NCBI RefSeq assembly: GCF_965363235.1 | Contig: NC_134840.1 | Location: 95,306,416 to 95,370,415, forward strand | DNA: 64,000 bases | Origin: Mytilus galloprovincialis | Lineage: Eukaryota; Mollusca; Bivalvia; Mytilida; Mytilidae | Direction of reading: 5' to 3' | Part shown: positions 11,267-52,523 of the stretch, piece by piece | How positions within the stretch are numbered: position 1 is the first letter of the stretch | Layout of the letters: the number at the start of each line of letters is the position of its first letter | Notes under the pieces: model-generated | Databases searched by the model: none | The model's input: the letters and a program-made list of their open reading frames with translations, nothing else | Told to the model about the DNA's origin: nothing | Translations under genes and position numbers: made by a program

Positions 11267-11394
11267 ACAGACATATGTACATAAAGAATGTGGTGGATAA
11301 ACAATTTTGTGAGCACTGAAACCTCAACCTCACCTTGGACAGAGGTGTAAAAATTTGACTTGAGTTCATAATTAAAAATTAACTGTTAACAAAA

Positions 11395-11600
11395 CTTTGA
11401 ATTTTTGAAATACCAAGGTTTCTACTGCAGGAATAGATTACCTTAGCTGTATTTGGCAAAACTGTTAGGAATTTTTGGTCCTCAATGCTCTTCAACTTTA
11501 TTTGGTCTTTTTAACATTTTTTGAGCGTCACTGATGAGTCTTTTGTAGATAAAGCATGTGTCTGGCGTAAATATAAAATTTCAATCCTGGTATCTATGAT
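11395..11600 (+). mobile_element. retrozyme-like fragment with decayed hammerhead ribozyme
   Basis: Homologous to part of the roughly 360-bp repeat units at 18083-18443 (minus) and 46378-46864. The hammerhead region 11525-11568 keeps CTGATGA and a GTC cleavage triplet, and stem I (GCGTCA with TGGCGT) still pairs. The segment corresponding to GAAA has lost its invariant G, so self-cleavage is not expected. Confidence 0.6.
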
Positions 11601-11692
11601 GAAAATATTTATTAACATATGAACAAACTGTAAAAATCAGTTTGAAATGGATTGATTCTTCATGTTGCCATAAAACTTAATAAACAAGAATG

Positions 11693-16293: not shown

Positions 16294-19200
16294 TCAAATC
16301 AGCATCATTTTAACCAATAAAGGTAAATGGTCAGAAGGATTATATTGATTTGGCAAATTTCCAAGTTCTTGAATTTCTCTGGATGACATGAGGCCCCAGC
16401 GACCTAATAATCTGAGTTTATCTTCCATAACATTGCTAGTAGTGTGCTTGTTTCGTCGGGTATGCACGTTCCTGTGTTGGACGCTGTAAAATATATAGTC
16501 CACTGTGCAAGCATCAGCACTGTGTTGTGTGGTGACTTCACGTTCATAATGTCCCAGTCTTTCTATAGTGTGGCGATATGTTGATACTAAATTCAACTTG
16601 TGCCATATACACCCTGAAGACTGTGACACAGCTGGATTGCTCCTATGTTCATAGTTCTCCTGATGATGAGATCTCCTAGCAGCATGTTTATTTTCACTTT
16701 CTATATGTTGACACTGGTCTGAAATGTTTACATCTGACGGGAAAAAATCTCTTGATAAATAATTGTCTTTGCCATATTGCCCTTCTCTCTGGCCAGATAT
16801 AGTCCTCGTTAGTAATCCTTCATACCTCAAGAACCCTTGAACCATGAACTTATATAAGTCACTAAATGGTGTGGCATTGAAATCCCCACACATGAGAACC
16901 TGGCAACGATGATTTCTATTGGTTTTCGCTACTTTATCTATTTCTGCCAGAAGACACATGGCCTGACCTAGTTTAATGTCCCCTCTCCTTGGATTAAATA
17001 ATAAATGAGTATTAGCTACACAAATAGAATCTTCTTCAGAATATGGATGTTTATGGGGTCGAAGCTTAACAACAAGACCAACATTGTCTCTGTCCAACAG
17101 ACTATAGTTAGATTTATAGTAAGGCACAGAAACACTCTGTTCCAGCGTAAATTTTTCTCTTTTGTAAAATGTTGCACAACCGTCTAATTTGTCACCAGTT
17201 CTCTTGACGTACACACCATTGTAACCTGAAAAAAAAAAGGTTATTTTAATCCATGGATTTTTATTATAGTGCATGTAGTGAAAATATTGAATCTCGGCAA
17301 AAATTCAAACATTACTAAATTTACAAATGTTAACAAAAACAGAAAAATTACAACGAAACGTATTATGTCTCTATTCCTGTCCACCATGATTTAGGCATGT
17401 ACTAAATTGAAAGAATTGCATTATGTTCAGCATATGTTTTATGATTTCATGTTTTCTACTTTGGTGTATCCTTTCTCAAAGAAAGTACTAAAAACCAAAA
17501 AGTTCATTTTCAAATTTAACATGCTTTAAAACTGGATAATCTGGTCCTCTGATGCCTTGTACATGTATAGATTCTGCTTGTATTTTGCTCTGATCAATTC
17601 CTTTCTGCTTATTACTGTGGATTCATTAATTTTTGTGGTTATCATTTTTTGGTGAGGACTGCTAGATTAATCCTTCTGCACCTTTATTCAAACACTTAAA
17701 CTGGATGACAGTTGAACAGAGAATAAAATATCATAAGTTAGTGATGACATTTAAGTGCATTAAAAATGATGCCCCATCATATCTTACTAACAAGTTTCAT
17801 TATGTTTCAGACAGAAATCCATACCCCTTGAGAAATGCTGTTCAAGGAAACCTCATACTCCCTAAACCAAAAAAAGAATTGTTCAAAAAATCTTTTATGT
17901 ATTCTGGACCATTCTTGTGGAATAATTTGTCAATACCATTAAGAAATATATTACAAATGTTAATTCTTTCAAATACAAAATAACAGATCATTTATTGAAA
18001 TCAACCTAGCTGTATCAATAATATTGAAAACTGTCAGCATGTTTCTTTTTTCATCACATTTTATCAAGTTGTATTGAATAGTTATCAAAGGTACCAGGAT
18101 TATAATTTAGTACGCCAGACGCGCGTTTCGTCTACATAAGACTCATCAGTGACGCTCATATCAAAATAGTTATAAAGCCAAACAGGTACAAAGTTGAAGA
18201 GCATTGAGGATCCAAAATTCCAAAAAGTTGTGCCAAATACGGCTAAGGTAATCTATTCCTGGGATAAGAAAATCCTTAGTTTTACGATAAATTCAAAGTT
18301 TTGTATACAGGAAATTTATAAAAATGACCACATAATTGATATTCATGTCAACACCGAAGTGCTGACTACTGAGCTGGTGATACCCTCGGGGACGAAACGT
18401 CCACCAGCAGTGGCATCGACCCAGTGGTGTAAATAGTTATCAAACGGCCTAGCCAAGATCAGATGTGCATTTCATATTGGGTCTATGTTATAGGCTTGTA
18501 AAGACAAGAAGATAAACTTTACATAAGTAATACATCTTTGAACTGAAGAAGAGGATGTAGGGTTTCACAATGAATATCAAATATCATGTATAGGTGTTAC
18601 CGTTTTGAAAAAAAACACTAAAATACACGCTGAAAATGGGCAAAATTACACGTTATGTTGTTTCATTTAAAATTTACCTTTTTTTATCAATTGATAGTTA
18701 ATAATTGAACTTAATTTGAACTACATTATTGGTTCACTGTTATAGACAATTTATTCTTCTTTCTTTTACTGGTTGTTGCAACAAAAAATCTTCAGTGGTT
18801 ACAAAGTTATGATAAAAAGTTGAATACTATGCGCTCGTTATGCAATTTTGTACTTTTGTTTTTAGCTTGCTCAGTGTAGTGATAAAAGAGAAAAATAAAT
18901 TAAATTTATGCTATTATGTCTTTTATTTTCTCTTCTAGTATATACATTATCAGAAACTACCTCATTTATCAAAATTGCAGTACCCTAGCTGGAGATATAT
19001 GCCATCAAAGTTGGATATACAAATAAAGTGAAAAAATGTCTTGTCCGTAGACATGCATTCCCTAGTAAACTGGAAGCATAATTACATTTATGTTGCATTG
19101 CTAAGTTCCTGTTCTTTTGTAGATATGAAAACACTACTAACATTTTTTTCTTCCATCTATTAATAGAGGAAAAAATTCAAAAATATGTCAGAATGTCTTG

Positions 19201-22200
19201 TCCGTAGACACATGTCTTGTCCGTAGACATGTCTTTTTATCAATATTGCTTGGCTTTATGGGTCTTAATTAGTCCTATGTGTTGTTTAAACTTAGAAATA
19301 TCTTATTTTTTATAAATGAATGGTAATTTAAGTGTTCTCAATTTTTGTAAAATGACTTTACGGGAGTGGATTTTAAAAAGTGTCAGATTATCAGTCATAA
19401 AAAGCATACCTTATTTTACTTCAATATTGTTTATTCCAGTTGATGCATACCTTAAAAGATTAACTAAATCAAATGAAGAAAAAGTATTTCTCTCTCTCTA
19501 ACTTTATCTTTTGCATTTCAGTATTAACAGCAGATGAGGAAGTGTCTACGGACAAGACACTTGTACATAACAAGTATTAAATTCAATTATTTGTCTGCTA
19601 TGGAACTTAAATCTTATTTATAGGTGATGAAAGTTATCTATTCAAATTAAAACTCAGTATTTTCAACATGAATATAGTCACAATTAATTCTAACAGATTT
19701 TTTTTTTAACTGAAATTGTCTTGTCCGTAGACATTACCACAATATATTTGTATCCAATTTCCTTGATTTCAGCCTAATTTGATAGGTAAAATGTATGTTA
19801 TTCTTTTAAGAGAACACATTCAACTATGTCAAAATTGAGTTTTAATAATAGTTTGATTGTTTTAAACAGACAGATATATGTATTTCAGTTAAAAGAATGT
19901 GTCTTCAGTTTGGCTTAATCAATAAATTATTGAGATATGTAAAGAATTATGGGTACATTTTTGTATTTTCCAAAATTTAAAAAACACAGCTTAAAATTTA
20001 AATAGTAACTTTTAATCTTAACTTTAACAATCATCTTTGAAAGCATTTAATTGAATATCAATAAAATGTCTTGTCCGTAGACATTATCAAAATGTATTTG
20101 TTTCCATTTTCCTCGAAGTTAAGCATCATTTGATAGATAAACCTGATAAAATGTATGGTTTTTTTTTAAGAGAACACTTTCAGCTGTATCAAAATTAGGT
20201 TTTAATAATGCATTTCATTAAATATGAATACAATGTCTTGTCCGTAGACAAAACATATAAATTGTATTGCTAAGTTTGATTGTTTATTGTAAGAATATGC
20301 ATCAAGTTATTTTAATGTTCTATACACCAAAAGAAAGGGTTTTTTTGGAAGTTTTGTTATTTATAGATAATTTTAGATACAGTTTTATCAGATAAGATTA
20401 ATGATCAAAGAAAGCTACTGTTGTTTGAAATAACTGTGAGTTAAACGTGTTCTTGTAATTTTTTTTTCAATTAAAATGTTTGATATTCAATAATTCTAAA
20501 CATATTTTGTTGTCTTTGTCATTGACCAAAAATCTGACACTGGTGACCATGTCTTGAAGCCAACCATTAAAGAAAATTATACAGTTTTTAAACACCATTT
20601 ATTTAATAAAAATATTAAATATTTCTTCCAAAAACTGCATGTAATTATATAAATGCTTCCAGTGTTAGCCTAACGATAGCAATTTTTCATAATTTAAACC
20701 ATTTTTGAACCAAAATATCAAAAGAGTTTTTCCCTGAGGTGATACTCATTTTTGACTTCATGTGAAACACAAAATGCACATCTGATCTTGGCTAGGCCGT
20801 AAGGTACCAGGATTATAATTTAGTACGCCAGACATTATTATCATACTTGACTTTTTATACTACTGTCATGACTGTATGCAATGTATATGTTTGCATTTTG
20901 TTTGATTTCTCATGATGAGGGCCTCAGGGAAGATTAGTTATATAGCTAACTGTGTAACCCTCTTAAAATAAAGTATTGATGTTGTTGTTGTTGGTGGATT
21001 GAGGAACTCTAGTATTTTTGTGGATATTTGCCAATCACTGCATACAAAGCCTAGAGAAAAATTGTAATTTGTCGACAATTTGAATAGGGTCCACCCAGCC
21101 TATATCCATGAAACCCACAAAAATTGGTATCCAGTAAATAATAATGAATCCAAAACATTTCTTTCTTACCTAGTAATGCTAGTTGCACTAAAAAAAAGTC
21201 TTACAACTATCAGTATATTTTACTATTCAAACCACTTGTTCCGTTTTAATAAGAATATGACAGCCAAGGGACCTCAATTTATTTAAGGTATTTATTGTCT
21301 CCAAGCAATAATTTCATTGGTGGATACAGGGGTGGGGTTTGAACTCCTTGTTTTTTTTTGGCCGATCAAGGCATTTGAATGGGGACATAGTTGGAACCCC
21401 CTCCTTTATCCTGTGTTGGGAACCCCCCCTTTTTAAAATGGCTGGATCCGCCCCTGAATTTCATGTCTATCTCAATGTCTTACCCAGCTGTTTCAGTTTA
21501 GGTTCCAGGAATACTGTGTAATGCTGTTTGTTTACTTCTTGTAAACATAATATCTGAAAGTAAATTAAAAGTAAAGTATTGTATACTTCAGTACCCCAAA
21601 TACCCTTTTATCCATATAATGTACATGTATAAAATCTAGTTAAATGAAGTAGATAGCACTTTTTTTTAATTCTTTCTACAAATTTTTAAATGACTTTCCA
21701 GTCTTTAGAACTCCCTAACCCCCCGCCCCATCCCCGATACTTAAAATAATTGTTGTACATGTCATGTAATCATACAATGTATATATAAGAGGATTATTTG
21801 ATTTGTAATATGCTTTATGTATCCTACACATAATATATAAAAACTCTTATTTAGCAAAATTAAAACAGATTATTAAAGTTGTAAATAGGATATACCGGTA
21901 ATTGTTATTTTACAAATGCTCATACATTCATGTATAATAACACGTATAATATTATCAGAAATTTCTTCTTTTCTTTTATCTAATGATATAATTACTTTAA
22001 AATTACAGGATATATTTAATTTAAGATAAATGAATAGACTAGTAAAAAGTTGTCATCCTTAAACAAAATAACTCTTTTGTTCAAATGAGGAAGTCTTCAG
22101 ACAAATACTTGTCTTTAGTTCAATGAGCCAAAAAATAGAGCAAGGTCTTCCTTTTGTTATAATATTAAGGAAATTTACTTAAGTGGTACACATTTATATC

Positions 22201-28440: not shown

Positions 28441-28632
28441 TGCAAAGCTCCGATTCATTACACGGATTTGGGTATACGTTTTGGAACTTTTGGATTATAG
28501 CTCTTCATTTTTTATATAAGCTATTTAAAGGATTTAAAATATTTTGGCCACGAGCATCACTGAAGAGACATGTATTGTGGAAATGCGCATCTGGTGCAAG
28601 ACAATTGGTACCGTTAATTTTATTACCGAATA
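28440..28632 (+). mobile_element. retrozyme-like fragment, second hammerhead family
   Basis: Contains a hammerhead-like region at 28554-28597 followed by AATTGGTACCGTTAATTTTA, a 3' context different from the 18083 and 46378 families. A short matching 3' fragment (AAAATGCACATCTGGTACAATTAATTGGT, in segments) lies at 51268-51298. It is truncated on the right by the CAGTGGCGG MITE. Confidence 0.45.
28554..28597 (+). ncRNA. decayed hammerhead ribozyme of a second family
   Basis: Stem I GCATCA (28554-28559) pairs fully with TGGTGC (28592-28597). The core CTGAAGA is allowed because the fifth position is variable. GAAA is at 28580-28583 and the cleavage triplet is ATC at 28589-28591. The first stem II pair is a G-G mismatch, so activity is doubtful. 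Stem I differs from the other family by compensating changes. Confidence 0.5.
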
Positions 28633-42036: not shown

Positions 42037-45000
42037 TTATTCTCGTCGTTGACGTTTCCTTGCCATTGCTAGGTCACCTTCTGTGCTCCTTTTATGATTT
42101 TTGAAATGTACTTGTGATTGTGCTGTAAGTTGAAGTTGTATTGCACTGTAGTTACACTTTTCCGAGGAGAAAATTTTACGCAATGCCAACATTTTATGAC
42201 TTTTCAGACATAAAGTTACTGGTTCAAAAATAACTTTTTCTTCCATGGGCTCTGGTTCAGGCTCAGGAATGGGACTTTCATGAGAACTGACAGGTATGGG
42301 ACTATTCGGTGAGACAGGGGTAATAACTCCGTTAGTAAACTGCTGTTCTTTTTTATACATCATCATATCTGATGGACTTTCTGCCTTAAGCATGGCATCA
42401 ACTGACATACCCATGAAAGGAGATCCGTTGGACTTGGTGCTCAAGAATTCCTGTAAATCGACCCTTGTGTCTGACGACGCTGTTACAACAGATGTTGTAC
42501 TAACAGCTGTAAAAGGTTCACCATTTCCCAGGAGATACTCAGGATTAAGTATTGAATCACCGCATGCTTGAGCTAATGCCTCGATATTAGGATTAGGTTC
42601 TGTGTGCAAATCATCATCAACCTTAGAGACCATGGCTTCAATGTCAGACATAGATTTGATTTGAGAATCTTCTGCTTGCCCATTTATTTTGTCTGATTTG
42701 TCTTTGTCATGAGTTTTACCTTTCTTTGCTTTAACTTTTTTCTTTTGATTTCTATTTTCATCTTGGATGATTTCTCTCTCTTCTTCCGATTCCTCGTCCG
42801 ATTCAGATGAAGAGGATGATTCCTCCCCATCCTCACTTATCAGATGAATCAGTTTTCTAACTGTTGGATCAAATTTAGCTAGCGAATTCACCAGCTGTTT
42901 GGCCCATGTTATGTGAAGAACAGGTGTTTTGCTGTCCTCTTCCCATTCACATATTCCATCGTAGAATCTAAGAAAGTCTGCGTAGCAATCAGGATCATAC
43001 GATATTGATGTTTGGTGAATACGGGAAGCATTTTCACTGGCTACATGCTTCATCATTGTTGGTATTAAATCATTGCCAACTTCTAGAAATTCTTTGTAAA
43101 TTTCTTCATCTTCTCTATTGTAATTAAAACTGTAAAAAATATTATATATTAATAGGGTGACCATAAGATATAGCAATAAGGAGATGAGGTATGACGACTT
43201 ATGAGACATCCATTACCCTAGAATAAAAACTTGGGATGTAAACAACTACATATGTAGATGTTATTTTTTTTATAAACTTGTGAAATTGAATTGAAAACTC
43301 GTAAAAATTTGCCCCATATTTGTTTTTAATAATACATGCAATACCACAATAACAATCCATATATTATTCTAAATGTTAATTATTTCATGCATATTCAGGA
43401 TTATAGTTTTTTTTTTGTGTGCACTCAATATCGAGATTGTTAAACGATCAACAAAAATGCGAGTTAAGGTATTGTGAATACAAAAAATGATATCAAAATT
43501 TAAAATGCGACTTTTCATTTTTGCAAAACCTGTCCTGCCATAATTTTTGCAGTAATAAAAACATCTACAATAATATTCCGCCCTGAGCATAACACTGAGT
43601 AAACAACAATATCCACAGTGAGTCACCTGCTTCTTAACAAAATACTTACTTTTTCACTGCATTAGTTGCTTCTGCCCATGCTTTTAATGCTTTTTTATAA
43701 TTGTGATTTCTGTAATGGTAGCCACCAAGATAGGTATATGGATAAACGTGTTGATTATGGTAATGAACTTTAGATGACTGGATTGATTCCTCAAAAATGT
43801 CCACAGGAGGCGGCCTCCCAGGTGTTGGTGAGATCTCTTCTAAGTCGCCCAGATTACCTAAAGCCATTGGGTATCTGTGCAAAAAAATTGACAGGTTTGA
43901 ATTGCTTTACATTTTTATTTTTTATTGGTGTGCAGAATGGGTTTCTTCATTGTTGAATATTGTACAGTGACCTATAGTTGCAAATATTTTTTTAAGTCTC
44001 CAAAATTACATGTATAAAAGCCACTTGGTACCTGTGGAAGGTAGTTGATGGTTATTTTTTTTCCAAATTTGTCATTTTGGGTCCTTTTATAGCTTGCTAT
44101 GCAGTATGAGTTTCACTGACTGTTGAATAATATACAGTGCCCTATAGTTGTTAACTTCTTCCTTATTTGGTCACTGGTGTCTCATAGGCAATCCTACCAG
44201 ATCTTCTTCTTTTCATAAAAATTGTTGCAATATCTGTTGCTATCTATAGTCCTTCAGAAGCATGAAAGATGGTTACAGACATTCAAAGTTGTTTTTTCAT
44301 AATTTTTTGAAACATTTAATTTTCTCATGAATTTTACGATAAAACTTGTAGGCAAGTTCTTTTTGGTTTCATTCTATCTACATTTAGAATAAAATTGAAT
44401 AGAATATAGTGAAAATAATTCAAAAAATTGACAGTATTTTTTACATGAATAAAAGTACTTAGTACCAAAGGTTAATGTCTTTTTTTAGGGTATTTTTTTT
44501 ACATCTAATTTAATATCTATAATCTTTTGCAAAATCCATGTAACAACAGATCAGATTTCAGTTTCCTTTTATAATGAAAATGTCAATTTTTGCCTTCTAT
44601 TTGATTTGGCATGTTCATAATGAAATGGTTTTTCCAAAAAAAAAAATACACATTATTTACAAAAGTTACATTAAAGAAAAATTGAATGTGTGCTTGATTT
44701 TCATTCTGATATTAAAATGTTTCCTTTTTGCTTTTAGATTTTTGGTCTTTCATCAAGTTGTTATATTCCTCTTTTCCTTTCTTTGGAAATGAAGAGTTTA
44801 TTTTTTTGAAGAAGAGTTTACTCATTGTTCAAGAATCATAGATTTTTATCTCTTGTTTGGTTGCTGTTCCACTGATGATCACCCTTATTCCATTTTTTAT
44901 TTGAAGTATCATTTTACGACACATATTGAAGAGTAAACTTACTTTGATAAATGGCCCAAATCATACAACAGCCACAGAAGTTCCTGGAATGATACAACCA

Positions 45001-48000
45001 TTTTTTTTTTTATTAAATATTAATGAAGTACAGTAAAGTTCAGCAATAGTCCTGGTTATAAAAGTTGGTTCTATCCAGGAATTATATAGGGGCAAAAAAA
45101 ATTGTGTGTTCACAGTTATTGCACGACTTTGTCATACTTCGGTTAAAATAACAATGGTATTGGCAAATATCCCCCTTTTAAATCAAAGGAAATCAATAAT
45201 TTTTCTGTCCTGTGTAATAAAAGGGACAAGCATATAAAGTTTTAATGCTTTCATTTTCCAATAAAGATAAAGAGAATTCAGCCCAGTTGGTAAAAGATAA
45301 TATATATTCAGATATGAAACTATACACTCATTATTATTTGTTTGATGGTGGCCTTATGCTGTTTTCTGCTCTTTGGTCGGGTTGTTGGCTTTTGGACATA
45401 TTCCCCATTTCATTATAATTTGTTTGATGATGGCCTTCTGCTGTTTTCTGTTCTTTGGTCGGGTTGTTGTCTTTTGGACATATTCCCCATTTCATTATAA
45501 TTTTTTTGATGGTGGCCTTCTGCTGTTTTCTGTTCTTTGGTCGGGTTGTTGTCTTTTGGACATATTCCCCATTTCATTATAATTTGTTTGATGGTGGCCT
45601 TCTGCTGTTTTCTGTTCCTTGGTTGGGTTGTTGTCTTTTGGACATATTCCCCATTTCATTATAATTTGTTCGATGGTGGCCTTCTGCTGTTTTCTGTTCT
45701 TTGGTCGGGTTGTTGTCTTTTGGACATATTCCCCATTTCATTATAATTTGTTTGATGGTGGCCTTCTGCTGTTTTCTGTTCTTTGGTCGGGTTGTTGTCT
45801 TTTGGACATATTCTACATTTCATTATTATTTGTTTGATGGTGGCCTTCTGCTGTTTTCTGTTCTTTGATTAGGTTGTTGGCTTTTAGACATATCCCCCAT
45901 TTCATTATTATTTGTTTGATGGTGGCCTTCTGCTGTTTTCTGCTCTTTGGTCGGGTGTTGGCTTTTGGACATATCCCCCATTTCATTATTATTTGATACC
46001 AATTTTCGTGGGTTTCATTAATTTTGTTGGTTGTGGTGAACCTCAAATTGAAATGTTCAAAGAATTATAAATTATGAATAAGATTTTATGCAAACTTGTA
46101 TAAAACCATGAAATTAAACATGCATGAAAATGCAAGTTTTCGTTAGTCCAGAAAATTTTTACCCATGAGAATAAATGAATCCACAGGCATAAGTTATTTG
46201 TTGTTGTTTAAATTGCTATCTGTTATACTGTGGATTATTTATTTGGCGTGTGTACCAATTTTTGTGAATTATGGAAAACTTGGATATTTGAAACTCATTG
46301 TTTTGCTGAAGTCTGAATTCAAGCATATAGAAAATTTGTCACTTGTTGAATATTTCATTTTGTGGTTCACATCAACTTCGTACTTTATTTGGCCTTTTAA
46401 CTTTTTTGGATTCAAGCGTCACTGATGAGTCTTTTGAAGACGAAACCCGCGTCTCGCTTATATACAAAATTTTGTCCTGGTATCTATGATGAGTTTTTTT
46501 ACAACCACTGGGTCGATGCTACTGCTGGTGGAGTTTTAATTCCCAGAGGGTATCACCAGTCCAGTAGTCGGCACTTTTTGTGCTGACATGAATTATCATT
46601 GATACGGCTATATTTATACATTAACTGTTAACAAAATATTGAATTTTTGAAAAACTAAGGCTTTTCTACCTCAGGCAAAGATTATCTTAGCTGTATTTGG
46701 CATAACTTTTAGGAATTTTGGTCCTTAATGCTCTTTAACTTTGTACTTTATTTGGCTTTTTTAACTTTTTTGGATTCCAGCGTCACTGATGAGTCTTTTG
46801 TAGACGAAACGCGTGTATGGCGTATATACAAAATTTAGTCCTAGTATCTATGATGAGTTTATATACACATGAAATCCACTTTAATATGGTATCTAATGAT
46901 GAATCCACAGTACCTGTTGTAATGATCCCATCTCAACACTATCCACAGTCAAATTTATGGATGGATTAATTCCACTAACAATGGCTGCCACTTCCATGTG
47001 TCTGTTACATATAACTGGCTGTCCATTTAAATACAACCAACTCTTTTCTACAACACTAGCTGTGATTGGCTGGCCTCTTTTGTCTTCATTTCCTTTCCCT
47101 TAAAATAGAAATGTCTTAATAATTTATCATTCCACATCAGCACATGATTCCAGCACAATGAACCAATGAAAAATACAATTCAATGACAGGTTGAAAAGTA
47201 AAAGAAGTTGCTGTGCTAAAGTTTTTATTGACAAACCTGCAAACTAAAATAATGTTGGTTAAAGCCTTTTCTAGTTAATACAGAATAGGATCAGGTATTT
47301 CTATTATCTACATGTATGTTTTCGAAAGGGGCAGTTTATTTATGTTGTTAGAAACACCATATACAAGTAACAAGGTTAATCTTAAATATATTGATAAATC
47401 TATAATACCATGGTATTTTGCTAGTGGAGTTGTCAATCCTTTTGAGAGCAGGCTCAACAAAGAATTCATATCAAATTTTGCAAAAGATGCAGCAAAATCA
47501 TGAGTTAAAACTTGACCTATTACCATGCCATGTGACTTCAGCAGTTTCCTTTAAATCTTCACCAAACACAACCCAAGCATGGTCTTCTGATAAAGATAAA
47601 TGTACGTCATTGTATTCTAATATCTGGAAGGCAGCAACTACTGCAAAAGCCACACCAAAACAGTCAAGCTTGTTCCCTGAAAGAGAAAAAGTGCATACAG
47701 TTTATAAAACATTCAGACACCAAATGTCAACCATTCTTAAAAAAAAATATATTTTATTAATAACCTGTTTTAATGTTTTATATATTTGCATCACTACCTA
47801 TAAAGACAGTGTTCTCCCCAGGATTTTTGGATAGCGCTGTTGTAAGCGCGTGATTTTCGACAATTCTCAGTAACTTTGTTGCGGCGCGCGGTTGGTTTGT
47901 AATTGATTTGTTATGTGTTTTTCTTATATAATGCTATTGATGTTTTCTCTTGTAATGATGTCCTCATCATGCTCATGGAAGTTACCCCTTTGTTTGCTAA

Positions 48001-51000: not shown

Positions 51001-52308
51001 TTGTATAAAAGACTGTTCACGTCATAATCCATAGTACGTTTATTACGTCTATACTTTCGCGGACCATCGCACTTTAGCGTGTGTAGGCATCGTACTTTAG
51101 CGTAGACCATCGCACTTTAGCGTGACCATCGTACTTTAGCGTCCCCATCGCACTTTAGAGTCCTACACATATACTAGTTCAGTGATAATGAATTAATGCC
51201 ACATGTGTGTACATGTGTGTGTTAATTGCACTGAGTAAATGCATACGTTGATTGAAACATAATTGGCAAAATGCACATCTGGTACAATTAATTGGTTACT
51301 GGTTGATGTTAGTGGAATGTGTACCTAAATTGAGCATGACCTAGAATAATGAGGGGTACAAGCAGCCTTTAACATGTTCAAGATTAATTTTTTTATAATA
51401 AGTAGATTTATTTATATAAACATGTTCTGATTTTACACTGAAAACATTAGGAGTCTTGGGATTCTATGTTACTCCATACAGATTACTTAAAAGTCTTAGG
51501 CTGGTCACATAAGTCGATGGCATTGTATAACTGATATAAACTACCTCTTCCTTCGGTTTTTGGTGGATAGTTGACTCATTCATTTTGTCATTGGCAATCA
51601 TACCATGTCTCCATATTTAAATGTTTTACTTCCTCATTAGAATCTGATTCTTAGAAATATGGGTATTAAACAACAATATCAAATATTTTATAAAGGATGT
51701 CATATATATGAACAGAATATATAGTTGGATTTATTCTGTATTTGTGATTGAAGATTGACGACAGGGATGTTTTAATATAGAAGCTGTAAATTATGACCAT
51801 AACAAAAGGATTAGTCACTGACAGTCCTATTTCAAATTTCTTTGGACTTAGATAAATAAAACCTCATGTAGAGATGTGTAAACTTGTTAATAAGTATACC
51901 AGTTAAGAAACTGTAAAGTGATTGGAGATGTGCTCGGTCTTTGAAACTCTTTGATAAACAACACCAAACAACATCAGAGACAATTTTCACAAGTTCTCTG
52001 GTAGCAAATTTGTCAGGAAATTTTGTTTTGTCAACGGATCTTTTAATATGCGTCACAAATTTAGTGTACAGTGCTTCAATGGTCGATAATTCAATAACGG
52101 GGAAAATGGGCTCCAGCGTGTTGGATTTGTCAGCATCACTAGATACCGCTCGGTTGACAGTCAGAATATTTTCAATTACTCCAAGCACAATTGACATTAA
52201 TGTTAAGTTAGGTTCATCATCTTTCAGTTCATGTTTAAATAAGTCAATGACATCTTGTATTTTTTGAAGGGGAAAGAATTGTTTTTCGATTTCTCGTAAT
52301 CCCGCCAT
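42037..52308 (-). CDS. MEN1: menin, six coding exons
   Basis: Exons, in order: 52308-51900, 47676-47524, 47098-46914, 44983-44943 (41 nt), 43874-43650 and 43129-42037. All have GT/AG junctions and phases chain without conflict, giving about 701 aa (human menin 610). Diagnostic blocks in order: [147 protein letters not shown]-like end. Menin is a nuclear scaffold binding MLL/KMT2 complexes and JunD. The long last exon has an acidic Ser/Glu run, then Lys-rich stretches and a basic C-terminus (ARKRQRRE) fitting nuclear targeting. The extra length relative to human lies in this low-complexity region. The start AAGATGGCGG context resembles a YY1 site. Head to head with CLPTM1; intron 1 and intron 3 hold large transposons. 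Confidence 0.96.
45336..45995 (-). repeat. 82-bp minisatellite, about eight units
   Basis: Units start near 45341, 45423, 45505, 45587, 45669, 45751, 45833 and 45917, each with GATGGTGGCC, GTTTTCTG, GGTCGGGTTGTTG and CCCCATTTCATTAT. The unit is the complement of part of the GTGTCAAAGAGACAAC dispersed repeat. Because 82 is not a multiple of three, it produces staggered look-alike reading frames that are not genes. In MEN1 intron 3. Confidence 0.88.
45990..46186. mobile_element. TACTGTGGATTC MITE, truncated copy
   Basis: Starts inside the element at GATACCAATTTTCGTGGG and ends AATAAATGAATCCACAGG. Its left end is lost against the 82-bp minisatellite. Confidence 0.55.
46416..46459 (+). ncRNA. 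hammerhead ribozyme, partly decayed
   Basis: GCGTCA, CTGATGA, stem II GTCTTTTGAAGAC, GAAA and GTC are present in order, but the 3' strand of stem I (TCGCTT) pairs poorly with GCGTCA, so activity is probably reduced. Confidence 0.6.
46780..46823 (+). ncRNA. type-I hammerhead ribozyme, core intact by eye
   Basis: GCGTCA (46780-46785), CTGATGA, stem II GTCT-TTTGT-AGAC, GAAA (46806-46809), minimal stem III, cleavage triplet GTA (46815-46817), then TGGCGT, which pairs fully with GCGTCA. GTA satisfies the NUH rule for cleavage. It is antisense to MEN1. Confidence 0.75.
47807..49771. mobile_element. 1.97-kb non-autonomous TIR element, CAGTGTTCTCCCCAGG ends
   Basis: Perfect inverted ends CAGTGTTCTCCCCAGG and CCTGGGGAGAACACTG, flanked by AAAGA at 47802-47806 and 49772-49776. 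GC-rich subterminal blocks (GCGCG on the left; GCGACGCGGT twice and AGCGGGAAATT twice on the right). No transposase frame. CAG start with a 5-bp duplication suggests hAT-like. In MEN1 intron 1. Confidence 0.82.
50013..51167. mobile_element. 1155-bp TIR element with arrays of CTAAAGTGCGATGG at both ends
   Basis: Ends TGTAGGACTCTAAAGTGCGA and its complement. Six direct motif copies on the left (50022-50144) and five inverted on the right (51064-51158); variants differ only at G/A positions (GTGCGATGG or GTACGATGG). The interior includes a reverse copy of the host dispersed repeat at 50345-50456. No transposase. The insertion site is defined by the split repeat, with an ambiguous ATATA-type duplication. 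Confidence 0.82.
50345..50456 (-). repeat. dispersed repeat fragment inside the CTAAAGTGCGATGG element
   Basis: The complement of the GTGTCAAAGAGACAAC family: ACATTGAAGACCTGTTGGTG, then GGTCAGGCTGTTGTCTCTTT, then CCCCATTTCCATTT. Confidence 0.65.
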
Positions 52309-52523
52309 CTTGCATTAGGAAAATAATATTTTAGCCTTTAAATCTGCATTTTTACATAATTACATATTTAAGGAGTTTTATTAAAACATTGACGAAAATA
52401 TTCATGCTTTAATATTTTTATTATCTTAATTTAATTGTATTTTAGGTTGTCATTGCTTTGTTTTTAAAGAAATTTTCTGTTTCGTAATAGGTTTAGAGAT
52501 TATTTATTATGTTTTTAGAGAAA
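52309..52523. promoter_or_regulatory. bidirectional MEN1-CLPTM1 promoter region
   Basis: Only 215 bp separate the divergent start codons. It is AT-rich with no clear TATA box. Both start codons sit in YY1-like contexts (AAGATGGCGG for MEN1, AAAATGGCCG for CLPTM1). The sequence TATGTTTTTAG just before the CLPTM1 ATG could be a splice acceptor, in which case a 5' UTR exon of CLPTM1 would lie upstream and overlap the MEN1 side. Confidence 0.6.

Follow-up and report, generated by a model that had tools for sequence, protein, structure and literature searches.

The window, a stretch of 64,000 nucleotides of Mytilus galloprovincialis DNA, carries on its minus strand five stretches that match the Menin profile and belong to MEN1 (Table 1; exon limits are those of the open frames or of the matched stretches). 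In the intron after the third of them (46914-47099), approximately 52 nt beyond the 5' splice site inferred from the sequence, lies a short tandem insert with two hammerhead motifs. The hammerheads are read on the plus strand and MEN1 on the minus strand, so the insert is antisense to the gene; both its intronic location and its orientation had been given in the initial annotation and were borne out.

The insert had also been placed inside a miniature inverted-repeat element (MITE), and its flanks agree with this: the inverted-repeat element ends at the left border and resumes at the right one. The left flank matches a MITE-like repeat that is present at many places. When the right flank was aligned to the ends of other copies of this repeat, none of 300 shuffles scored as well in four of six comparisons, and 5/300 and 6/300 did so in the other two. 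Together with the inverted arms, this alignment locates the insert within a MITE-like repeat. In a comparison with an empty site (L032), both flanks met with a three-letter gap and without a long target duplication. At 46905-46916, this repeat directly adjoins the MEN1 5' splice site inferred from the sequence: its TA flank forms intron positions +2 and +3 (CAACAG/GTACTGTGG), and the repeat supplies the donor from position +4 onward. Directly upstream of the MITE-like repeats, positions 45328-45995 hold a tandem array of 8.2 copies of an 82-bp unit.

Table 1. Features of the window that bear on the retrozyme insertion and its surroundings
Feature	Position	Strand	Remarks
Retrozyme insertion, family A	46372..46861	+	1.35 units of 364-bp repeat
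Full 364-bp unit, phase reference	46378..46741	+	Phase 1 = 46378
Hammerhead 1	46416..46459	+	Core and GTC intact; predicted cleavage 46453/46454; 79.1 bits (family model)
Hammerhead 2	46780..46823	+	Core intact; GTA; predicted cleavage 46817/46818; 93.2 bits (family model)
Common family 3' terminus (GATGAGTTTA)	46852..46861	+	43-44 nt beyond cleavage site
MITE-like element, left part, interrupted by retrozyme	46226..46371	.	Inverted arm 46226-46243
MITE-like element, right end	46862..46912	.	Inverted arm 46895-46912
MEN1 exon in open frame	51835..52314	-	Menin profile 3-146
MEN1 exon stretch	47522..47668	-	Menin profile 146-194
MEN1 exon	46914..47099	-	Menin profile 194-255; approximate limits
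MEN1, next exon's open frame	43649..43906	-	Menin profile 267-343
MEN1 exon in open frame	42040..43212	-	Menin profile 342-671
Second window retrozyme, family B	18078..18444	-	Same 3' end; remainder ~20801-20836
Third window retrozyme	11360..11608	+	Same 3' end

A tandem of 1.3 units with a period of about 364 had been proposed for this insert, and we measured 1.35 units with a period of 364; the element itself stood as annotated, with its limits improved from 46378-46864 to approximately 46372-46861. The two units overlap by 119 nt and are identical in 108 of 120 alignment columns, leaving 12 that differ. The copy diverges from the family-A majority by 6.1%, whereas the two samples described below have medians of 3.8% and 4.7%. 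On the basis of these two figures, the window retrozyme is probably older than most copies of its family. Its composition is that of a retrozyme: GC content was 0.355 (retrozymes, below 50%), the 364-bp tandem unit falls within the 150 to 450 bp of such repeats and has many dispersed copies genome-wide, and the hammerhead is of type I with a short stem III. Six open reading frames of 41 to 86 amino acids overlap the insert, the longest of which begins outside it, and the insert can thus be regarded as non-coding. No reverse transcriptase (RT) or GIY-YIG coding was found in the insert and no overlapping frame exceeds 86 amino acids, which sets it apart from Penelope-like elements.

The second hammerhead is made up of GCGTCA, CTGATGA, a stem II of GTCT and AGAC with a 5-nt loop, GAAA, a stem III of the form C-GCGT-G, and TGGCGT. 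The letters that had been read at 46780-46823 (CTGATGA, GAAA, GTA, and a 4-bp stem II) were confirmed one by one, as was the fully paired six-bp stem I, although two of its six pairs are wobbles. Its cleavage triplet is GTA (46815-46817), and the family majority is GTC. A hammerhead had been claimed for each unit; this holds for the core and the pairs of unit 2 and for the core and GTC of unit 1, but not for stem I of unit 1 in the standard register, where GCGTCA faces TCGCTT with two mismatches. In a shifted register, AAGCG pairs with CGCTT. The minimum-energy fold calculated with ViennaRNA contained the full hammerhead for neither window copy (z values of 0.40 and -0.19). With its GUA triplet and its weaker unit-1 stem I, the window copy looks degraded and, as a result, would probably be a poor donor of circles.

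A search of the window with the Rfam covariance models, which had been suggested as a check, was negative, with no family at its gathering score. At a relaxed threshold, RF00008 was the sole hammerhead family listed, at 27.4 and 21.1 bits compared to a cut-off of 48.5, next to two weak unrelated matches and with two lower-scoring clan matches omitted. Since family A, to which the window insert belongs, scores low with the Rfam models, their threshold is unsuitable as a refutation. We dropped Rfam as arbiter for this family and used a covariance model of our own, for which 53 copies from elsewhere in the genome were aligned; it recovered both hammerheads of the insert (Table 1; E values of 6e-23 and 5e-19 for the higher and lower score, respectively). 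Alignment A1 comprised 53 of 58 loci and, because it required an exact CTGATGAGTC with GAAAC after it, is biased toward intact ribozymes. The insert reaches the gathering cut-off of neither RF00163 nor RF00008, whereas relatives from a second family, B, pass RF00163. Genome-wide, 37 places were listed for RF00163, of which 29 were above cut-off, and 19 of 20 that were fetched lay within a family-A or family-B alignment, mostly B; at one such place (L025) the best alignment was to an adjacent copy.

Homologous units elsewhere in the genome had been expected and are abundant. The 28-nt hammerhead core was matched 20,744 times with at most one mismatch, compared with 0 matches for the reversed-pattern control. 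The window segment itself gave 75 matches, partly incomplete, at 88-100% identity in a search that scored 40 of 11,151 first-look candidates. As judged from these sequence counts, a chance origin of the hammerhead repeat is excluded. Both-side changes were seen in 1 of 12 pairs in an alignment with little variation, and covariation was dropped as proof of the hammerhead because the sequences vary too little. A conserved 22-mer had 0 matches in viral contigs.

Copies of family A were found to end at the same place. In the position-ordered sample, which consists of the first 45 exact cores listed on contig C1 in 40 stretches and requires an intact core, 3' ends fell at phase 117-131 in 30 of 38 measurable cases, and 5' ends in 0 of 38. 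For uniform ends, the binomial tail of 30/38 in a 15-nt window is 1e-33. The remaining eight 3' ends were at phases 87, 110, 111, 113, 113, 143, 227, and 227, four of them (110-113) near the shared site. In the best-match set, comprising 39 loci retrieved with a query that ended at the end of the window copy and the window copy itself, 35 of 40 3' ends were at phase 117-131, compared with 1 of 40 5' ends, which otherwise lay all round the unit. The position-ordered sample was added because this query ended at the shared end and could bias the ends. Since selection for both samples relied on an intact core or on match length, very short inserts escape them. Fully contained inserts measured 76-751 bp in the position-ordered sample, where many were below one unit, and 463-3,022 bp in the best-match set, with 1.27 to 8.30 units per copy. 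The two 3' ends at phase 227 (L108 and L110; 2 of 38) are unlike the usual site and perhaps mark a second start site.

The shared end lies beyond the hammerhead rather than at it. In most copies of family A it was 43-48 nt past the cut, and 3' ends coincided with the cleavage site in 0 of 78 cases. Family B, whose unit of 352 bp is 77-83% identical to that of family A by two measures, ends 37-45 nt past the cut: among 20 loci picked by Rfam score, 17 had their 3' end at phase 109-117, with cleavage after 72 (the exceptions being L010, L021, and L025). Of 20 further family-B sites compared by eye, 16 had the same end (one of them, L154, ambiguous), two continued into the next unit, and two differed. 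A 29-mer across the shared end was found 3,670 times genome-wide with two mismatches, versus the 20,744 matches to the core; the core sits about 50 nt upstream of this 29-mer, and the 29-mer search was the more permissive.

The shared end places ATT in the loop of a putative six-pair stem and is followed by an AC-rich strand. The stem was unchanged in all 32 aligned copies, with no variation by which to test pairing (alignment A2, 32 of 40 stretches; the rearranged L072 and L093 were dropped and six others were unlisted). In both families, the template, too, continues with ATT at the junction. We had considered ATT as a target motif and withdrew this, as two read-through copies show ATT in the template itself. 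Candidate target-site duplications were in slight excess, with matches of at least 6 bp in 11 of 63 cases compared to about 5 expected. One locus (L070), which shares its flank with L065, was excluded from the duplication, array-variant, and alignment analyses and included in the end counts. Another copy (L118) is inserted in a repeat that is seen uninterrupted beside L056, and comparison by eye suggests a duplication of 0-2 bp.

The window feature is best explained as a metazoan non-LTR retrozyme, a non-autonomous, non-coding retroelement that was inserted long ago. The type-I hammerhead would cleave its tandem transcripts, and ligation of the fragments would give circles of about 364 nt, a step that is documented in the literature for the mussel. 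An RT, probably of a Penelope-like element, would start at one fixed internal place some 45 nt past the cleavage site, adjoining an AT-rich target, and would proceed back around the template for one fifth of a turn to eight turns, stopping anywhere. A fixed start and a random stop would leave the copies with one 3' end in common and with 5' ends spread around the unit. We consider it likely that a Penelope-like enzyme reverse-transcribes the retrozyme, starting at one fixed site within a template that continues across the cut; the simplest such template is a circle.

That none of the 78 3' ends lies at the cleavage site speaks against a self-cleaved, linear monomer on which copying began at the 3' terminus. 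Copying such a monomer from the shared site would yield at most about 48 nt, and thousands of copies carry the upstream core, which points to a template joined across the cut. For core-bearing copies, this template would need to be either a ligated circle or an uncleaved transcript; that it was circular, and that the enzyme was Penelope-like, we infer. Long arrays are informative here. In L036, L046, and L052, most non-consensus letters are present in all units or in one only; L036, for instance, has 6 sites in 7/7 units, 13 in a single unit, and 3 at intermediate counts. This distribution is expected if a single circle is copied round and the units mutate afterwards. Median divergence was 0.046 within arrays and lower than the 0.069 between arrays.

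Alternatively, older tandem arrays could be transcribed into linear multimers that stay uncleaved and on which the RT starts internally, with circles as a by-product. Such arrays are available as transcription sources, and some of their variants do occur at intermediate frequency, with 13 sites at 2/5 in L057 and likewise more intermediate sites in L087. In addition, insertion by a Penelope-like element in vitro was unaltered by hammerhead mutants, according to the available part of that report (PMC11167929). We nevertheless regard an uncleaved template as unlikely, because the all-or-one variants of several long arrays fit a single circular template better, and because circles were given as the main RNA form in the mussel in the accessible text of PMC7229834.

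Elements with GIY-YIG frames, presumed to be Penelope-like, are present in the same genome, with at least 147 matches and frames of up to 911 amino acids. Three partial frames, which covered other parts of these elements, gave no reverse transcriptase match in Pfam. Eight stretches that follow such frames were read by eye. A minimal hammerhead with CTGANGA, stem II, GAAAGCGCTA, and a matching stem I was seen in L123, L124, and L128; a GAAAGCGCTA-type 3' half with a degenerate core was seen in L125 and L130; and no hammerhead was seen in L126, L127, and L129. At the frame starts, CTGATGA or GAAAGCGC occurred in 0 of 6 stretches. A 25-mer around the cut of the L125/L130 type has 103 places in the genome. 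In 12 of 12 copies of this type (10 of 100 places listed, out of 103 counted, plus L125 and L130), common sequence extends to 43-50 nt beyond the cut of the motif and is followed by TA runs or unrelated sequence, and in L123 and L124 it extends to about 73 nt. The GIY-YIG elements, too, thus end tens of nucleotides beyond a hammerhead-type motif, one type at the distance of the retrozyme. They often end in TA runs, as few retrozymes do, and by eye their tails are unlike the retrozyme tail, so the element need not be the retrozyme's partner. Copies of the L125/L130 type often form close inverted pairs that point outward, and L130 has a short retrozyme copy downstream of the GIY-YIG frame.

Copies that share one 3' end but are truncated at various points on the 5' side are characteristic of LINEs and SINEs in general. 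Copying of the circle by a LINE-type RT through target-primed reverse transcription, in the manner of SINEs, would fit the ends described above, and our data name no enzyme. This possibility appears rather unlikely for several reasons. Neither a poly-A nor a common simple-repeat tail was seen at the listed junctions, there was no clear target-site duplication, and two empty-site comparisons, one by eye and one by alignment, suggest a duplication of 0-3 bp. Furthermore, a GIY-YIG element from this genome has its end about as far past its own motif, and the available part of PMC11167929 documents a Penelope-like enzyme that starts internally beyond a hammerhead.

Two further explanations can be set aside. 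Satellite DNA, spread by unequal crossing-over or by extrachromosomal DNA circles with the hammerhead as a passenger, would account for head-to-tail tandem arrays, but we hold it to be very improbable given thousands of dispersed places, many with less than one unit, that share one 3' end and have scattered 5' ends; integration of DNA circles would scatter both ends. That the hammerhead letters are a chance motif within a tandem repeat is scarcely credible: the missed Rfam gathering thresholds, the incomplete minimum-energy folds, and the weak covariation would allow it, but the genome-wide core count against an empty control, the RF00163 places that align to the two families, and the published cleavage of a cloned M. 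galloprovincialis unit (PMC7229834, available text) do not.

Among the retrozymes published from Mytilus galloprovincialis, the window element is an old and ordinary one, and its initial identification as a retrozyme agrees with the accessible text of that study in unit length, repeat state, hammerhead type, and the presence of two families (Cervera and de la Pena 2020, PMC7229834). Self-cleavage of a cloned unit and circular RNA were published there. Shared characteristics are repeats of 350-390 bp, low GC content, thousands of copies, and two similar families of type-I hammerhead that lack most of the usual loop contacts. We counted 20,744 cores with at most one mismatch, compared to approximately 5,000 in that study, in which target-site duplications, when present, were longer than 4 bp. 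The fixed 3' end goes unreported for mussel retrozymes in the part of that paper available to us, and no published report of it was found among the titles and abstract openings of the papers listed.

Plant LTR retrozymes, as far as described in the available parts of PMC4918200 and PMC7229834, are likewise non-coding, with a hammerhead and a circular RNA intermediate, but differ in having a type-III hammerhead within LTRs, circles of 600-800 nt, a primer-binding site, and a polypurine tract, features for which the insert was compared by reading alone. A parallel to the end reported here is Poseidon, a Penelope-like element of Anolis (PMC11167929, available text). Its RT in vitro starts internally past the hammerhead at an AC-rich stem loop and favors ATT targets, and Poseidon resembles the retrozyme in the hammerhead upstream of this start, in its tandem or partial-tandem structure, and in its AT-rich targets. 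In contrast to the retrozyme, Poseidon is autonomous and encodes an RT and a GIY-YIG endonuclease; its main start is 85-92 nt past the cut, with a second, adjacent start reported, versus 43-48 nt here.

A 2020 review, in its accessible portion, described animal retrozyme repeats as having no conserved motif from which the mobilizing machinery could be deduced (PMC7761336). The 3' end shared by the copies of two families, at nearly the same distance from the cut, is a signal of this kind and bears on how animal retrozymes return to DNA. It argues for a template joined across the cut and identifies a start site whose use could be assayed with a purified Penelope-like enzyme. More broadly, animal retrozymes may be rolling-circle retrotransposons: a Penelope-like RT would initiate on the ligated circle at a constant stem-loop, some 45 nt beyond the cut, and sometimes make several turns, so that the genome would preserve a record of both the start site and the number of turns. 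Retrozymes would then have their start-site rule in common with Penelope-like elements. To this generalization as a whole we would give roughly even chances.

The family model had further matches within the window, at 18091-18159 (minus strand), 11521-11593 (plus strand), 28550-28617 (plus strand), and 20804-20857 (minus strand), in addition to two with E values of 0.65 and 0.88. The match at 28550-28617 is a degraded hammerhead-like sequence with 44.7 bits. The family-B retrozyme of the window, which runs on the minus strand from about 20836 to 18078, is itself interrupted at 18444-20800 by a 2,357-bp element with perfect 29-bp inverted ends.
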